Shown in pieces: positions 49,201 through 53,677 of a DNA stretch of 64,000 nt. Position 1 is the first letter of the stretch, and every line of letters begins with the position of its first letter. This DNA is from Pseudomonas sp. FP1742 (lineage in GTDB: Bacteria > Pseudomonadota > Gammaproteobacteria > Pseudomonadales > Pseudomonadaceae), in the NCBI RefSeq assembly GCF_030687145.1, contig NZ_CP117460.1, forward strand, positions 3,162,001 to 3,226,000, written 5' to 3'. The notes under the pieces are model-generated. The model was not told the origin of the DNA and did no database searches. It saw only the letters and a list, made by a program, of their open reading frames with translations. The translations under genes were made by a program, and so were the position numbers.

Positions 49201-49677
49201 ATGTCTACTGCCGAAGTTCGTCCGCCATTGCCACCGTTTACCCGTGAATCGGCCATCGAAAAAGTTCGCCTGGCCGAAGACGGCTGGAACTCTCGCGACC
49301 CGGAGCGGGTGTCCCTGGCCTACACCCTTGACACCCAATGGCGTAATCGCGCCGAGTTCGCCCACAACCGCGAAGAAGCCAAAGCTTTTCTGACCCGCAA
49401 ATGGGCCAAGGAACTGGACTACCGGCTGATCAAGGAACTCTGGGCCCACGGCGACAACCGCATTGCCGTGCGCTACGCCTACGAATGGCACGACGACTCG
49501 GGCAACTGGTTCCGTTCCTACGGCAACGAGAACTGGGAGTTCGACGAGAACGGGCTGATGTTCAACCGTTACGCTTGCATCAACGACCTGCCGATCAAGG
49601 AAAGCGAGCGCAAGTTCCGCTGGCCGCTGGGCCGCCGGCCGGATGATCACCCGGGCTTGTCCGACCTGGGCCTGTAA
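49201..49677 (+). CDS. NTF2-like / DUF1348 family protein
   Basis: A 158-residue single-domain protein. The cone-shaped NTF2/SnoaL fold is suggested by [18 protein letters not shown], then [18 protein letters not shown] and [18 protein letters not shown], which are typical of DUF1348 proteins. No catalytic function is established for the family. ATG 49201 has GGGAG 9 nt upstream. It follows the TetR gene and is probably controlled by it. Confidence 0.85.
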
Positions 49678-49692
49678 CTTCACAGAGATCCA

Positions 49693-49782
49693 TGTGGGAG
49701 CGGGCTTGCTCGCGAAGGCGGACTGACATTCAACATTGATGTCGACTGACACACCGCTTTCGCGAGCAAGCCCGCTCCCACA
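49693..49782. repeat. REPIN between the DUF1348 and sfnG genes
   Basis: Both arms complete, TGTGGGAGCGGGCTTGCTCG on the left and CGCTCCCACA region on the right; the spacer again includes ATTGATG and GACTGACACACCGC, related to the elements at 24523, 27218 and 27349. It lies between convergent genes. Confidence 0.9.
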
Positions 49783-49796
49783 ATGTTTTGTGGTGT

Positions 49797-50891
49797 TCAG
49801 GCGACTGCGGTGCTCTGCTCGAGCTGTGCTTTGGCTTCCAACTCCCGCACCAGCGGCAACACCCGTTTACCGAAGTACTCCACCTCCTCCTGAAAGTGCA
49901 GAAACCCCGCCAGCACCAGATCCACCCCCACCGCTTTCAACGCGACGATCCGTTCGGCAATCTGCTGCGGCGTACCGATCAGGTTGGTCTTGAAACCGTC
50001 GTTGTACTGCACCAGATCTTCAAAGGTCGATTTGGCCCAGTTGCCCTCGCCCTCTGGTGACGCCCTGCCCGCCTGTTTCGCCGCATCGCCAAAGGCATTC
50101 ACCGCGTGCGGATCGGCCTGATCGATGATCTGCGCCAGTACCGCCCGCGCCTCTTCTTCGGTGTCGCGGGCAATGACAAAGGCATTCACTCCAACCTTCA
50201 CCGAATGATTATTGGCGCTCGCTTTCGCGCGAATATCGTCGACTTGGGCCTTGATGCCTTCAGGAGTGTTGCCATTGGTGAAATACCAATCCGACACCCG
50301 CGCCGCCATGTCTCTGGCAGCACGGGAGCTGCCGCCCTGGAAGACTTCCGGTCGACCCAACGGCTTGGGTTTGAGGCTGTAGTTGTCGAAGCGATAGAAG
50401 TCACCGCGAAAGGTGAAATTATCCTGGGTCCAGATGCCCTTGAGTGCGCGGATAAATTCTTCGGAGCGGCGATAACGCTCGTCGTGCTCCAGCCAGTGTT
50501 CGCCGATGGCCTGAAATTCCCCCTTGAACCAGCCACTGACAATGTTCACCGCCACCCGGCCATTGGTGAGTTGATCGATGGTCGCCAGTTGCTTGGCTGC
50601 CAACGCCGGTTGCCATGGCCCCGGCAAGATTGCCGCAATCACTTTCAGCTTGCTGGTCGCGGCCAGCAGTGCATGGCTGAACGCAACCGATTCATGTTGA
50701 AACTCGGCGCCATACCCAGCGGTGAAACGAATCTGGGTCAAGGCATATTCGAACCCCGCCTCTTCGGCCAGTTGCGCCAGTTTGCGGTTATAGTCGATGC
50801 CCCAATGGGTGCGCTGTTCGATCTTGCTGACCACCAGCCCGCCACTGACGTTCGGCACCCAGTAGGCAAATTTGACGGCTTGCTGACTCAT
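49797..50891 (-). CDS. sfnG: FMNH2-dependent dimethyl sulfone monooxygenase SfnG
   Basis: A 364-residue luciferase-like (LLM) flavin monooxygenase. The opening KFAYWVPNVSGGLVVSKIEQ, then ATIDQLTNGRVAVNIVSGWF and EVFQGGSSRAARDMAA, are SfnG/SsuD blocks. It converts dimethyl sulfone to methanesulfinate for use as a sulfur source under sulfate starvation, with FMNH2 from a reductase encoded elsewhere. A sigma-54-type promoter lies at 50930-50945 and an IS110 element begins 115 nt upstream of the start. The divergent sfnB-type gene lies beyond the element. Confidence 0.92.
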   Translation of the reverse strand: MSQQAVKFAYWVPNVSGGLVVSKIEQRTHWGIDYNRKLAQLAEEAGFEYALTQIRFTAGYGAEFQHESVAFSHALLAATSKLKVIAAILPGPWQPALAAKQLATIDQLTNGRVAVNIVSGWFKGEFQAIGEHWLEHDERYRRSEEFIRALKGIWTQDNFTFRGDFYRFDNYSLKPKPLGRPEVFQGGSSRAARDMAARVSDWYFTNGNTPEGIKAQVDDIRAKASANNHSVKVGVNAFVIARDTEEEARAVLAQIIDQADPHAVNAFGDAAKQAGRASPEGEGNWAKSTFEDLVQYNDGFKTNLIGTPQQIAERIVALKAVGVDLVLAGFLHFQEEVEYFGKRVLPLVRELEAKAQLEQSTAVA

Positions 50892-50929
50892 GGACGTGTC
50901 CTCGGGTTTTCAGGGAAGTCCTTGGCCAG

Positions 50930-50945
50930 AGCAGCAACCGTGCCA
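50930..50945 (-). promoter_or_regulatory. Sigma-54 promoter of sfnG
   Basis: Reading the minus strand, TGGCACGGTTGCTGCT has the GG and GC doublets 12 bp apart and matches the -24/-12 consensus TGGCACG-N4-TTGC closely. SfnR, a sigma-54 activator, controls sfn genes in P. putida, which agrees. The IS element lies about 60 bp upstream of the -24 GG. Confidence 0.75.
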
Positions 50946-51008
50946 TCGCTTGAATCGCGTTTTGTGACACTGGCGTCTTGAGTCGAGCGAGATACCCTGT
51001 GGGAGATT

Positions 51009-51971
51009 CTATGTTGCAGGACAACCCTGCAACGGTCGATTCGGTTGGTATTCGCTCTGGTTTTTCATCAGAGCGAACGCCACCCGGGCGAGTTTTCGGG
51101 CAAGGATTACCAGGGCCTGAGTCCTCTTGAAACCTCTGGCCAGGTACCCTTCATAAAATGGTTTCCAGGTCGCTGAACGACAGGCGGCCATGGCCGAGTT
51201 GTGGGCCAGACGTCGTATTTCCGGATCCCCTTTCTTGGTCAGACTGCGACTCCCCGTCTTTTTTCCCGAGTCATCGACCCTCAAGTCCATGCCCAAAAAA
51301 GCGATGAAGGCATTGCTGTCCTTAAACTCGCCACGCAAAAAAGCCGTCGCAAATCCAGTTGCCGTCAGTACACCAACGCCTTCAATGGCCTTGCAACGCT
51401 CAATATTTTCGGCGGCTCCGGCCTCTTTGCTCAGGTCACGCAGCTGTTTTTGAATGGCCAAATCCGAGCGCTTAAACGTCTCCATCAGACATTTCAGCTC
51501 TTCTTCCAGGCGCGGCTCATTGGCCCAGCTCTGAGCCAGGCTGACACGCGCCTTGATCAGTGCTGCCCGTCGATGAAGCAGGCTTTGCAGGGCCTTGTAA
51601 GCCTTGGGCGGCGGGCTCCAAGCGCGTAACCCACCCTGTTCATGCGCCAGATACCGAGCCAGAAGACGAGCATCACACGGATCATTTTTAGCTCGTTGGC
51701 CGACACCGCGGCGGTAATGACTCAAGCGATAACCGTCCACGACGTAGACCTGATGACCCAACTCATAGGCCAACTCAACCGTGTCCAAGTGGTAAATGTT
51801 GGTGGCCTCAACGGCAATGCCACTTTTGGCGGGCAGCGTCTTGAGCCAACGTTTGAGTGCTGCTCGATTATTGGAGATGGCTTGTGTGGTTTGCAGATCG
51901 GCGCGATAGACGAGCACCTCAGCCTTGGCCACATCAACACCCACGACCGCTTGCGAAGTAAGGATTGTCAT
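51009..51971 (-). CDS. IS110 family transposase
   Basis: A 320-residue recombinase. The N-terminal RuvC-like DEDD domain has VVGVDVAKAEV (Asp13), AVEATNIYH and RAKNDPCDARLLARY; the C-terminal Transposase_20 domain has KAIEGVGVLTATGFATAF and SRSLTKKGDPEIRRLA, which holds the serine used with the RuvC site. The protein looks intact, so the element may be active. The gene ends 3 nt from the right-end border. Family members carry out RNA-guided recombination with a bridge RNA. Confidence 0.95.
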   Translation of the reverse strand: MTILTSQAVVGVDVAKAEVLVYRADLQTTQAISNNRAALKRWLKTLPAKSGIAVEATNIYHLDTVELAYELGHQVYVVDGYRLSHYRRGVGQRAKNDPCDARLLARYLAHEQGGLRAWSPPPKAYKALQSLLHRRAALIKARVSLAQSWANEPRLEEELKCLMETFKRSDLAIQKQLRDLSKEAGAAENIERCKAIEGVGVLTATGFATAFLRGEFKDSNAFIAFLGMDLRVDDSGKKTGSRSLTKKGDPEIRRLAHNSAMAACRSATWKPFYEGYLARGFKRTQALVILARKLARVAFALMKNQSEYQPNRPLQGCPAT

Positions 51972-52017
51972 GACGAATCCTCGGAGCTAGGGTTTAAGAG
52001 CTTGTTGGGGTCTACCG

Positions 52018-52158
52018 TTGCGCTGGCTTGTCTCTATCGTCGGCCTAGCCGATGAATTCCTTATTGGCGCTTTTAGGTAGAAGGGGTGGGACGAAGTCTC
52101 CCACGGTCTGTACTGGCTAGAGTCAGAATCGGGCTTTTAGTCCCACCCACCCCTTCAA
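52018..52158 (-). ncRNA. Predicted bridge RNA of the IS110 element
   Basis: Two hairpins with internal loops lie between the element border and the transposase start. Hairpin 1 (52080-52156) closes with GAAGGGGTGGGAC and its complement; its inner stem is 52107-52114 with 52121-52127. The loop strands are AAAAGCCCG (minus strand, 52130-52138) and GTGGGAG (52098-52104), which equal and complement the two sides of the REP target AAGCCCG-CT-CCCAC. Hairpin 2 (52020-52070) carries GGAAT and ACAAG, which fit the element ends AGAAT and CTTGT. The exact RNA ends are not visible. Confidence 0.72.
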
Positions 52159-52173
52159 GTCTAAACATACAAG

Positions 52174-52256
52174 CGGGCTTGCTCGCGAAAGCGGTATGCC
52201 AGCCAATAAATAAGTTGAATGTTAACCTCCCTTCGCGAGCAAGCCCGCTCCCGCAG
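52174..52256. repeat. Right part of the REPIN split by the IS110 element
   Basis: CGGGCTTGCTCGCGAA at 52174-52189 is the remainder of the split REP, whose first part CTGTGGGAG lies at 50998-51005. The partner arm TTCGCGAGCAAGCCCGCTCC follows at 52232 and ends in CGCAG, with one change from the usual CACAG. Confidence 0.85.
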
Positions 52257-52360
52257 GTAACCGGGTACACCTGAAGCAATTTGCTGATGCACTGTTGCCA
52301 CAGCAACAATTCAGGCCACGCCGAAATCCACACCCTCCAATAAACTATACCTGCGAGCTT

Positions 52361-52376
52361 CGGCATGGACCGTGCA
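52361..52376 (+). promoter_or_regulatory. Candidate sigma-54 promoter of the sfnB-type gene
   Basis: CGGCATGGACCGTGCA has GG and GC doublets 12 bp apart and matches several other positions of the -24/-12 consensus. It predicts a start near 52387, about 50 nt before the ATG. It is weaker than the sfnG promoter but agrees with SfnR control of both genes. Confidence 0.5.
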
Positions 52377-52438
52377 ATCGCCCTTGGCATGCAACGCCTT
52401 TCACCGCCGATTTTTTTACCACGCCAAGGAGCTGTCCC

Positions 52439-53677
52439 ATGACCGATCACCAGGTAATCAACCCGCTGTCCACCGGCACTGACTATGAAGCACTGGCCGA
52501 ACGCTTTCGGCCGATCTTCCAGCGCATCGCCGCCGGTGCCGTCGAGCGCGAGCAAAGCCGCAGCCTGCCGAACGAGCCGATTCAGTGGCTCAAGGACGCC
52601 GGTTTCGGCGCGGTGCGAGTGCCGGTTGAATACGGCGGTGGCGGCGCATCCTTGCCACAGTTGTTCGAATTGCTGATCGAACTGGCCGAAGCCGACTCCA
52701 ACGTACCCCAGGCCCTGCGCGGGCATTTCGCCTTTGCCGAGGACCGCTTGAACTCACCCCCGGGGCCGGGCCGGGATCTGTGGTTCAAACGCTTTGTTGA
52801 CGGAGACATCGTCGGCAATGCCTGGACCGAGATCGGCGCCGTGGCAATCGGCGAAGTGATCACCAAGGTTTCTCCCCATGGCGAGCAGTGGCGGCTCAAT
52901 GGCGAGAAGTTCTACAGCACCGGCAGCATTTTCTCTGACTGGATCGACGTCTATGCCCAACGCAGCGATACCGGTGGCGACGTGATCGCCGCCGTCCGCA
53001 CACGCCAGCCGGGGATTGTGCAGAGCGATGACTGGGACGGTTTCGGCCAGCGCACCACTGGCAGTGGCACCTCGCGCTTTACCGATGCCGAAGTGGAGGC
53101 TGAAAACATCATCGACTTCGCCACCCGTTTCAAATACCAGACGGCGTTTTATCAGTTGGTGCTGCTGGCGACCCTGGCCGGCATCGGCCGCTCTGCCTTG
53201 CGCGATGTGACGCATCAGGTGCGCGAGCGTAGACGCATCTATAGCCATGGCAATGCGCAGCGGGTCAGCGAGGATTCGCAAGTGCAGCAGGTGGTGGGTG
53301 AAGTGGCGGCGTGGGTGTATGCCGCCGAAGCCAGTGCCCTGAAAGCCGCACAACCGGCGCAGCGGGCTTATCTGGCACGGTTCTCAGGGGATGAAGCGCT
53401 GGAACGCGCGGCGAATGTGGCGGCGGAGATTGAATCGGCCAAAGCTCAGGTGGTGGTCTCGGAATTGATCCAGCGGGCGACTACGGCGCTGTTCAACGCC
53501 TTGGGCGCTTCGGATGTTCGCGAAGGTAAATCGCTGGATCGGCATTGGCGCAATGCGCGGACCGTGTCATCGCACAATCCGGTGATCTACAAGGCTCGGA
53601 TTGTTGGGGACTGGGCGATTAACGGGACCGAACCGCCGTTTGTGTGGCAGATCGGTAATGGGCCTGTGCGCAAGTGA
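52439..53677 (+). CDS. sfnB: SfnB family sulfur acquisition oxidoreductase (acyl-CoA dehydrogenase fold)
   Basis: A 412-residue flavoprotein of the DszC/acyl-CoA dehydrogenase fold. DAGFGAVRVPVEYGGGGAS, GNAWTEIGAVAIGEVIT and KSLDRHWRNARTVSSHNP are blocks of the SfnB/DszC branch; the catalytic glutamate of true acyl-CoA dehydrogenases is missing, with HNPVIYKAR at the C-terminus instead. SfnB proteins are thought to act as monooxygenases in organosulfur use. ATG 52439 has AAGGAG 8 nt upstream; the frame extends earlier without a start signal. It is divergent from sfnG across the IS element. Confidence 0.85.
   Translation: MTDHQVINPLSTGTDYEALAERFRPIFQRIAAGAVEREQSRSLPNEPIQWLKDAGFGAVRVPVEYGGGGASLPQLFELLIELAEADSNVPQALRGHFAFAEDRLNSPPGPGRDLWFKRFVDGDIVGNAWTEIGAVAIGEVITKVSPHGEQWRLNGEKFYSTGSIFSDWIDVYAQRSDTGGDVIAAVRTRQPGIVQSDDWDGFGQRTTGSGTSRFTDAEVEAENIIDFATRFKYQTAFYQLVLLATLAGIGRSALRDVTHQVRERRRIYSHGNAQRVSEDSQVQQVVGEVAAWVYAAEASALKAAQPAQRAYLARFSGDEALERAANVAAEIESAKAQVVVSELIQRATTALFNALGASDVREGKSLDRHWRNARTVSSHNPVIYKARIVGDWAINGTEPPFVWQIGNGPVRK

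Follow-up and report, generated by a model that had tools for sequence, protein, structure and literature searches.

The left end of a REP-inserted IS110 element in Pseudomonas reads as a bridge RNA whose target loop matches its insertion site

Bridge RNAs have been described for IS110 elements, together with covariation across thousands of them (PMC11208160). Natural redirection is in print for ISMch6 (PMC11187229), as is the targeting of REPs by Pseudomonas IS110 elements (PMC1525189). IS621 from E. coli has a recombinase of this family, a CT core and an RNA in its left end with two internal loops, LTG/RTG order and a REP target; its donor right end, as read from the numbering of the structure paper, is CTTGTAT (PMC11208160, PMC11208158). 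The seekRNA elements ISEc21 (IS110) and ISEc11/ISPa11 (IS1111) use an RNA guide with one match per strand, and in ISEc21 the RNA lies upstream (PMC11187229). ISPa11 targets a REP in P. aeruginosa but is of the IS1111 type, with its RNA downstream of tnp (PMC11187229). ISPpu9 and ISPpu10 of P. putida KT2440 are IS110-family elements that, by description, are always found at the same point of a Pseudomonas REP, with a direct repeat of 2 bp (PMC8450116, PMC1525189). In the open-licence literature, searched by titles and the beginnings of abstracts, we found no description of bridge RNAs of REP-targeting IS110 elements in fluorescent pseudomonads.

Judged by its sequence and the RNA predicted from it, the element analysed here shares the listed features of IS621, the RNA guide of the seekRNA elements, the upstream RNA position and guide order of ISEc21, and the family, REP position and 2-bp direct repeat of ISPpu9 and ISPpu10. 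It differs from IS621 in its target sequence, in a right guide of 7 nt rather than 4 and in a subterminal inverted repeat of about 6 nt rather than 2–3. It also differs from the IS1111 group, in which the RNA lies downstream of tnp and the inverted repeats measure 7–17 bp, and from ISPpu9, in which tnp has an antisense RNA on its upstream side and a sense RNA on its downstream side (PMC8450116). It appears to be a genuine representative of the bridge-RNA/seekRNA family of 2024 and no novel type of system; the mechanism has been in print since 2024.

The window, the whole 64-kb stretch of DNA that was analysed, holds one complete IS110 element, inserted in a REP; all features of the element are given on the minus strand. 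Its tnp gene (51009-51971) encodes an IS110-family DEDD transposase/recombinase of 320 aa, identified by Pfam (DEDD_Tnp_IS110, 3.7e-19; Transposase_20, 3.3e-13) and by solved relatives, the best of which was the IS621 transposase (8wt6, E 1.2e-21), with ISCro4 (9t56) at E 9.9e-21. A DEDD RuvC domain and a Tnp domain with the conserved serine are present, as in IS110-group bridge RNA elements, and D13, E55, D97, D100 and S235-G236 align with the DEDD and Ser-Gly motifs of IS621 in an alignment read by eye. The left half of the target REP, AAGCCCG (52174-52180), adjoins the left copy of the core CT (52172-52173); at the other end, ATAGAAT (51006-51012) is followed by the right copy of CT (51004-51005) and by the right half of the REP, CCCAC (50999-51003). 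CT stands at either end of the element and also in the REP, as a core dinucleotide common to donor and target. The tnp stop codon TAG lies inside ATAGAAT, about 5 nt from the right core. Just inside the right end, within the tnp coding sequence of this copy, stands the palindrome GTTGCAGGGTTGTCCTGCAAC (51013-51033); relatives have a palindrome at the same place with other letters, for example GTTGAGGGCTTCCCCTCAAC.

The host chromosome (6.67 Mb, one contig) carries nine full copies, one split copy and one left-end fragment with 27 codons, as well as an additional, distant IS110 at 29% identity. All 11 left-end junctions join CAAGCCCG to CTTGTATG at the same site and in the same orientation, and all 10 right ends observed (those of L001-L009 and of the split copy L010/L011) join AGAAT to CTCCCACA. 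L002 keeps GAGCAAGCCCG next to a farther left flank that is unlike the usual REP, so the left flank shared by all copies is only about 10–12 nt long. Exact AAGCCCGCTCCCAC sites number 1238 in this genome. Sites with at most one mismatch to AAGCCCGCTCCCAC occur 23 times in the window alone, against 0.09 expected, mostly as close inverted pairs.

The non-coding left end (202 nt, 51972-52173), which runs from 52173 (CTTGTATG...) to 51972 and contains two hairpins, is the bridge RNA region and tnp leader predicted by a covariance model. Hairpin 1, the target loop, has a 5′ arm GGGGTGGGTGGGAC (52140-52153) and a 3′ arm GTCCCACCCC (52083-52092), both assigned from sequence and duplex energy of cognate arms, and an apical stem-loop TCTGACT...AGTACAGA (52107-52127) recognised by its conservation in leaders. 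At 52130-52138 the loop reads AAAAGCCCG, including the left target guide AAGCCCG (52130-52136), which is identical to the target at 52174-52180 left of the CT core and covaries with it in relatives. The right target guide GTGGGAG (52098-52104) is complementary to CTCCCAC and includes the complement of the core. An earlier note on this DNA had read the left end as a bridge RNA whose target loop spells the REP in which it sits; the sequence and coordinates on which it relied were right, both loop strands hold in this copy, and the layout that it invoked, a left guide with the sequence of the target's top strand and a right guide complementary to that strand, agrees with that of IS621 (PMC11208160). 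The RNA probably reaches past 52018, to about 51992.

The left end contains a single AAGCCCG and a single GTGGGAG, and both motifs, in this order and 20–60 nt apart, appeared in 2.5e-5 of 200,000 order-1 Markov versions of it. As this figure takes no account of structure and the motif was picked post hoc, relatives provide the real test. Folded alone, the left end showed a modest excess of stability (z -1.88; 10 of 200 shuffles were equally stable). The predicted fold pairs the two guide strands partly with each other, so that an open loop 1 is taken from the known family. An Rfam scan of 49500-53500 gave no match above gathering score; of five sub-threshold matches, none came near that score, and the highest-scoring one, MIR8670 (49670-49803), was discarded because its sequence reads as a REP palindrome. 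When promoters were sought across the joined right and left ends, the best -35/-10 scores were not above those of shuffles in most of 46 groups (8 for this element, shuffled mean 7.5).

We then compared the RNA helices across 42 aligned leaders. In the drawn helices, 90% of cells were paired, compared with 28–47% when the helices were slid, a fit favoured by drawing the structure on the same sequences. Two-sided changes affected 7 pairs, compared with 2.0 ± 1.0 in shuffles, and most of them fell either in the apical stem of loop 1 or in the inner hairpin of the donor loop. The apical stem of hairpin 1 had two-sided changes in 3 of 7 pairs, with 99% of cells paired. The arms of hairpin 1 differ by clade, with GGGGTGG/CCACCCC in one and GGAGGAGG/CCTCCTCC in another. 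MAFFT misaligned this hairpin between clades, and the arms were therefore compared by duplex energy, which averaged -26.3 kcal/mol for cognate arms (n = 45) and -19.9 across clades. The poor hairpin-1 stem obtained with RNAalifold over all clades had the same misalignment as its cause and was set aside. One left end with hairpin 1, L133 (G091), has no donor loop and was left out of alignments A1 and A2.

A closing helix (P0), CTTGnnGGG/CCCnnCAAG, connects the start of the left end with the stretch just upstream of the tnp start. Its 5′ strand CTTGaaGGGG (52150-52159) shares GGGG with hairpin 1, and its 3′ strand CCCCaaCAAG (52001-52010) also appears in the RNAalifold structure of an 18-sequence set. 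In this helix 94.9% of cells were paired, six of eight pairs were invariant and a single two-sided change was seen, in L156; its support is thus conservation more than covariation. Its energy was -19.5 kcal/mol for cognate strands, -17.8 across clades and -12.5 when shuffled. Extra sequence before the ACTTG/ACCTG block was present only in L027 and L156; with the other 40 of 42 leaders apparently leaving no room for it, an IS621-like 5′ stem-loop seems to be absent. Its apparent absence and the conserved 5′–3′ closing helix set the element apart from IS621. Because other fold types are reported in the family (PMC11208160), the apparent lack of the stem-loop bears on the subtype only.

The second hairpin, or donor loop, is closed by a GCGC stem (5′ strand 52067-52070, paired with the 3′ strand 52020-52023) that is invariant in 42 of 42 leaders and hence gives no covariation information. 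Three of the four pairs in its inner hairpin (52036-52053) had two-sided changes, but no more than 74% of cells were paired. The GGAAT and ACAAG named in the earlier note are both present. GGAAT lies within ATAAGGAAT (52056-52064), a left donor guide candidate opposite ATAGAAT, whose variants among the 42 leaders are ATAAAGAAT (23), ATAAGGAAT (18) and ATAGAGAAT (1). On sequence, the candidate pairing is either GGAAT with AGAAT or ATA(AG)GAAT with ATAGAAT. IS621 has a discontiguous donor pairing in its right donor guide (PMC11208160); the candidate here is in the left one, and we do not claim that they are the same. The putative right donor guide ACAAG (52027-52031) is complementary to CTTGT at the left end, and CAAG, complementary to CTTG there, occurs in all 42 leaders. 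The element ends and the donor loop hardly vary, so covariation cannot decide the donor pairing; the complementary strings are consistent with donor guidance and are not evidence for it.

Right and left ends read AACATA/TATGTT or ACCATA/TATGGT, a subterminal inverted repeat of about 6 nt, and the base beside the ATA/TAT triplet keeps its complement in 106 of 113 copies, the seven exceptions being TATGC. Directly after the putative right donor guide, at what is the handshake position of IS621, 41 of 42 leaders have a C. T was found there only in P. rhodesiae-type elements (L014/L089, L086, L221), which are also those found in targets with C at -1; L221 sits in AAGCTCG. For this one lineage, the link between the two is only suggestive.

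Relatives were collected by a transposase search of 398 Pseudomonas genomes, at least 56 of which had a match at 1e-40 or better. The sample comprised 100 fetched regions, loci from a named collection and 60 further junctions, drawn from 177 (84 + 93) in 33 genomes with a left-end pattern that excludes A at -8. Four right-end-only loci and nine of the 60 extra junctions that lack the guide loop were left out of the counts, and L014/L089, L015 and L018/L090, with one left mismatch each, stood outside the covariation tests. When copies of one genome are compared, they begin to differ at the expected ends, about 202–213 nt upstream of tnp. Across 117 copies in 46 groups, the left guide equalled the target in 76–91% of genomes at each position from -1 to -7 and in 9% at -8. 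The mean left match was 5.79 of 7, compared with 4.68 ± 0.13 when targets were shuffled, and none of 5,000 shuffles reached it. With a one-nucleotide shift allowed, it rose to 6.10 (shuffled 5.02 ± 0.12; 0 of 5,000), and shuffling only within clades gave 5.28 ± 0.12 (0 of 5,000). Among the 168 copies with a readable guide (46 groups), the match was 7/7 in 82, 6/7 in 60 and lower in 26 (5/7 in 14, 4/7 in 6, 3/7 in 5 and 2/7 in 1).

The right side behaved in the same way. Among 165 copies counted, GTGGGAG accompanied CTCCCAC in 152, CTCCTAC in 8 and CTCTCAC in 1, and all four copies with the guide GTAGGAG sat in CTCCTAC. Single genomes illustrate the pattern. Genome G217 has guide ATGCCCG with targets ACGCCCG, ATGCCCG and TTGCCCG, and G018 has CAATTCG with AAATTCG, GAATTCG and CGATTCG. 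Two genomes pair the right guide GTAGGAG with CTCCTAC on the right: G094 (left guide TAGTTCG, target AAGTTCG) and G356 (TACGCGG, target GTCGCGG). An Ectothiorhodospiraceae element has guide GACGCCG and the identical target in 3 of 4 copies, the fourth lying in GACATCG.

A quick transposase tree with 46 rows implies at least 20 changes of the guide and 23 of the target. Phylogenetically independent pairs at -3 changed in the same way in 5.5 and in opposite ways in 0 of 7 (median p 0.03); at -2 the figures were 2.8 and 0 of 4, too few to judge. At -6, covariation was not supported (2.2 same, 1.5 opposite, of 6 pairs). In the mismatch table of 161 copies, from which seven G301 copies were left out, position -6 had 11 G-over-A wobbles and 27 mismatches, and position -1 had 3 mismatches. 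Genome G139 keeps guide AAGCCCG with three of four junctions in AAGCCCC and one in AAGCTCG; L014, L015 and L018 likewise keep the guide with one left mismatch to the target. The match is thus a preference with tolerance and no absolute rule. The earlier note had held that the same loop in different targets would speak against its reading; such cases exist in G139, L014, L015 and L018, so that the objection applies in part.

Two loci in this sample are irregular. L154 (G186) has no recognisable REP on its left, and both flanks share CTCCCACATTTGGTAG, as if a local repeat had received the insertion or had been duplicated along with it. L128 and L129 (G066), 1352 bp apart in the same orientation and with identical upstream flanks over 287 nt, are apparently tandem copies.

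REP pools differ between hosts, and many of 44 genomes hold hundreds to over a thousand sites. We asked how often a copy sits in the REP variant that best fits its own guide. This was the case for 85 of 122 insertions, compared with 60.7 ± 3.7 expected from the host pools; the maximum in 20,000 draws was 74, and none reached 85. The test, which treats copies of one genome as independent draws, covered 122 copies in 38 genomes with the right side CTCCCAC and four counted left variants. The other 46 of 168 copies were dropped for lack of usable genome counts (17), another left variant (17), a right side other than CTCCCAC (9) or a missing right flank (3). Expectation was exceeded in 24 of 31 informative genomes. 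In G125 (guide AAGCTCG), 6 of 7 copies lie in AAGCTCG, a variant that makes up 106 of 1075 counted sites, where the pool predicts 0.7. In G217, none of nine junctions lies in AAGCCAG (359 sites) and eight lie in NNGCCCG (524 sites). Counter-examples are G301, with 0 of 7 copies in its nominal best variant (0.1 expected), G128 (0 of 3; 0.6), G290 (1 of 4; 1.4), G139 (0 of 1; 0.96) and G111 (4 of 5; 4.5). Genome G367, in which 7 of 14 copies are in AAGCCAG and AAGCCAGCTCCCAC has 10 sites, seemed to be very strong evidence. That reading was dropped: six of these AAGCCAG targets continue with CTCCTAC, and the genome has 1807 RRGCYNGCTCCTAC sites. The test was therefore limited to insertions with CTCCCAC on the right and one of four variants on the left.

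A covariance model built from 18 relatives outside the clade of this element (tnp at most 58% identical) matched 51966-52173 with 154.6 bits (E 3.8e-46; E-values are rough) and, up to E 10, nothing else in the 64 kb. The left end, which the earlier note had proposed to check against such a model, is thus recovered without its own clade. Of 14 loci given, the model found the left end in 12, down to 32–45% protein identity, with the match upstream of tnp; L012 and L070 gave no match. In relatives at 34–45% identity with a different target, the right guide fitted at 7/7 in L039, L042 and L045 and at 6/7 in L040. The left guide fitted at 7/8 in L044 and L045, 6/8 in L041 and 5/8 in L040 and L042, the last two being no better than non-cognate pairs. 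The covariation of loop and target that the earlier note had looked to is seen between genomes, within hosts, on the tree at -3, on the right side and in distant relatives.

Taken together, we conclude that 51972-52173 is very probably where this IS110-group insertion sequence encodes its bridge RNA. Anatomy, ends, target site, guide–target covariation and the preference for matching REPs come from the present analysis, and the remaining steps are borrowed from IS621 and the seekRNA elements. By that analogy, the element would excise as a circle, and transcription of its left end would yield an RNA to which the recombinase binds. As in IS621 and ISEc21, loop 1 would pair with both strands of the REP around the CT core and loop 2 with the joined element ends, whereupon the recombinase would exchange strands at CT as directed by the RNA. 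The guide here spells REPs of the type GCAAGCCCG followed by CTCCCAC.

Could the transposase alone recognise the REP, by its sequence or as a folded palindrome, with the left end serving only as a structured leader or regulator of tnp? REP-specific IS110 elements were known before guide RNAs (PMC1525189), the 5′-UTR and an antisense RNA regulate tnp in ISPpu9 (PMC8450116), on whose small RNAs this explanation is modelled, and a conserved helix does lie in the leader close to the tnp start. However, a mere leader would not predict guide letters that track the target within a transposase clade or on independent branches, nor would it account for the joint change of the left and right sides in L182 and L156 or for the fits to other targets in distant relatives, and we regard it as very improbable. 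More improbable still is that the guide-like strings are functionless REP DNA, captured or gene-converted. REPs are abundant (1238 exact sites) and the guides resemble local ones, but the two halves are split by the apical stem, one direct and one inverted, and agreement stops at -8; a guide tract longer than the published 7–9 nt was not seen, and relatives that have other targets retain this layout.

A guide that is real but vestigial or redundant, with wide target tolerance and a covariation that mostly mirrors the REPs on offer in the host, would fit the 82 of 168 copies at 7/7, the insertions of G139 in mismatched REPs and the 60.7 of 85 best-fitting insertions that host pools alone predict. 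The excess over the host pool is nevertheless significant (0 of 20,000 draws) and extends to 24 of 31 informative genomes, which leaves this account little chance of being right. A bridge RNA with an active guide remains the preferred reading. The elements then offer a natural test of bridge-RNA targeting, with about 20 guide changes on the transposase tree of one closely related Pseudomonas set. They also provide a natural mismatch table, with tolerance frequent at -6 and little of it at -1 to -4, that is useful for judging guide stringency. In addition, the data suggest how REP-bound elements survive the drift of host REPs.

Because the same GGGG is needed for hairpin 1 and for the closing helix with CCCCnnCAAG, the transcript could switch between the two. 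It is conceivable, though in our view unlikely, that the left end is a two-state RNA, in which a guide form and a tnp-messenger form of the same transcript alternate. If so, the guide letters around the switch would be free to mutate and to follow REP turnover from species to species.

Nine of the 60 extra left-end junctions (L186, L192, L196, L208, L222, L223, L224, L236 and L243) proved to be scars. In the oriented loci, from position 49 onward, a REP is followed by 23–33 nt of left end, as read by eye, and then by unrelated host DNA; no right end was present in the stretch fetched for any of the nine. In all nine, the break falls within the hairpin-1 5′ arm, apparently a hot spot for deletions.
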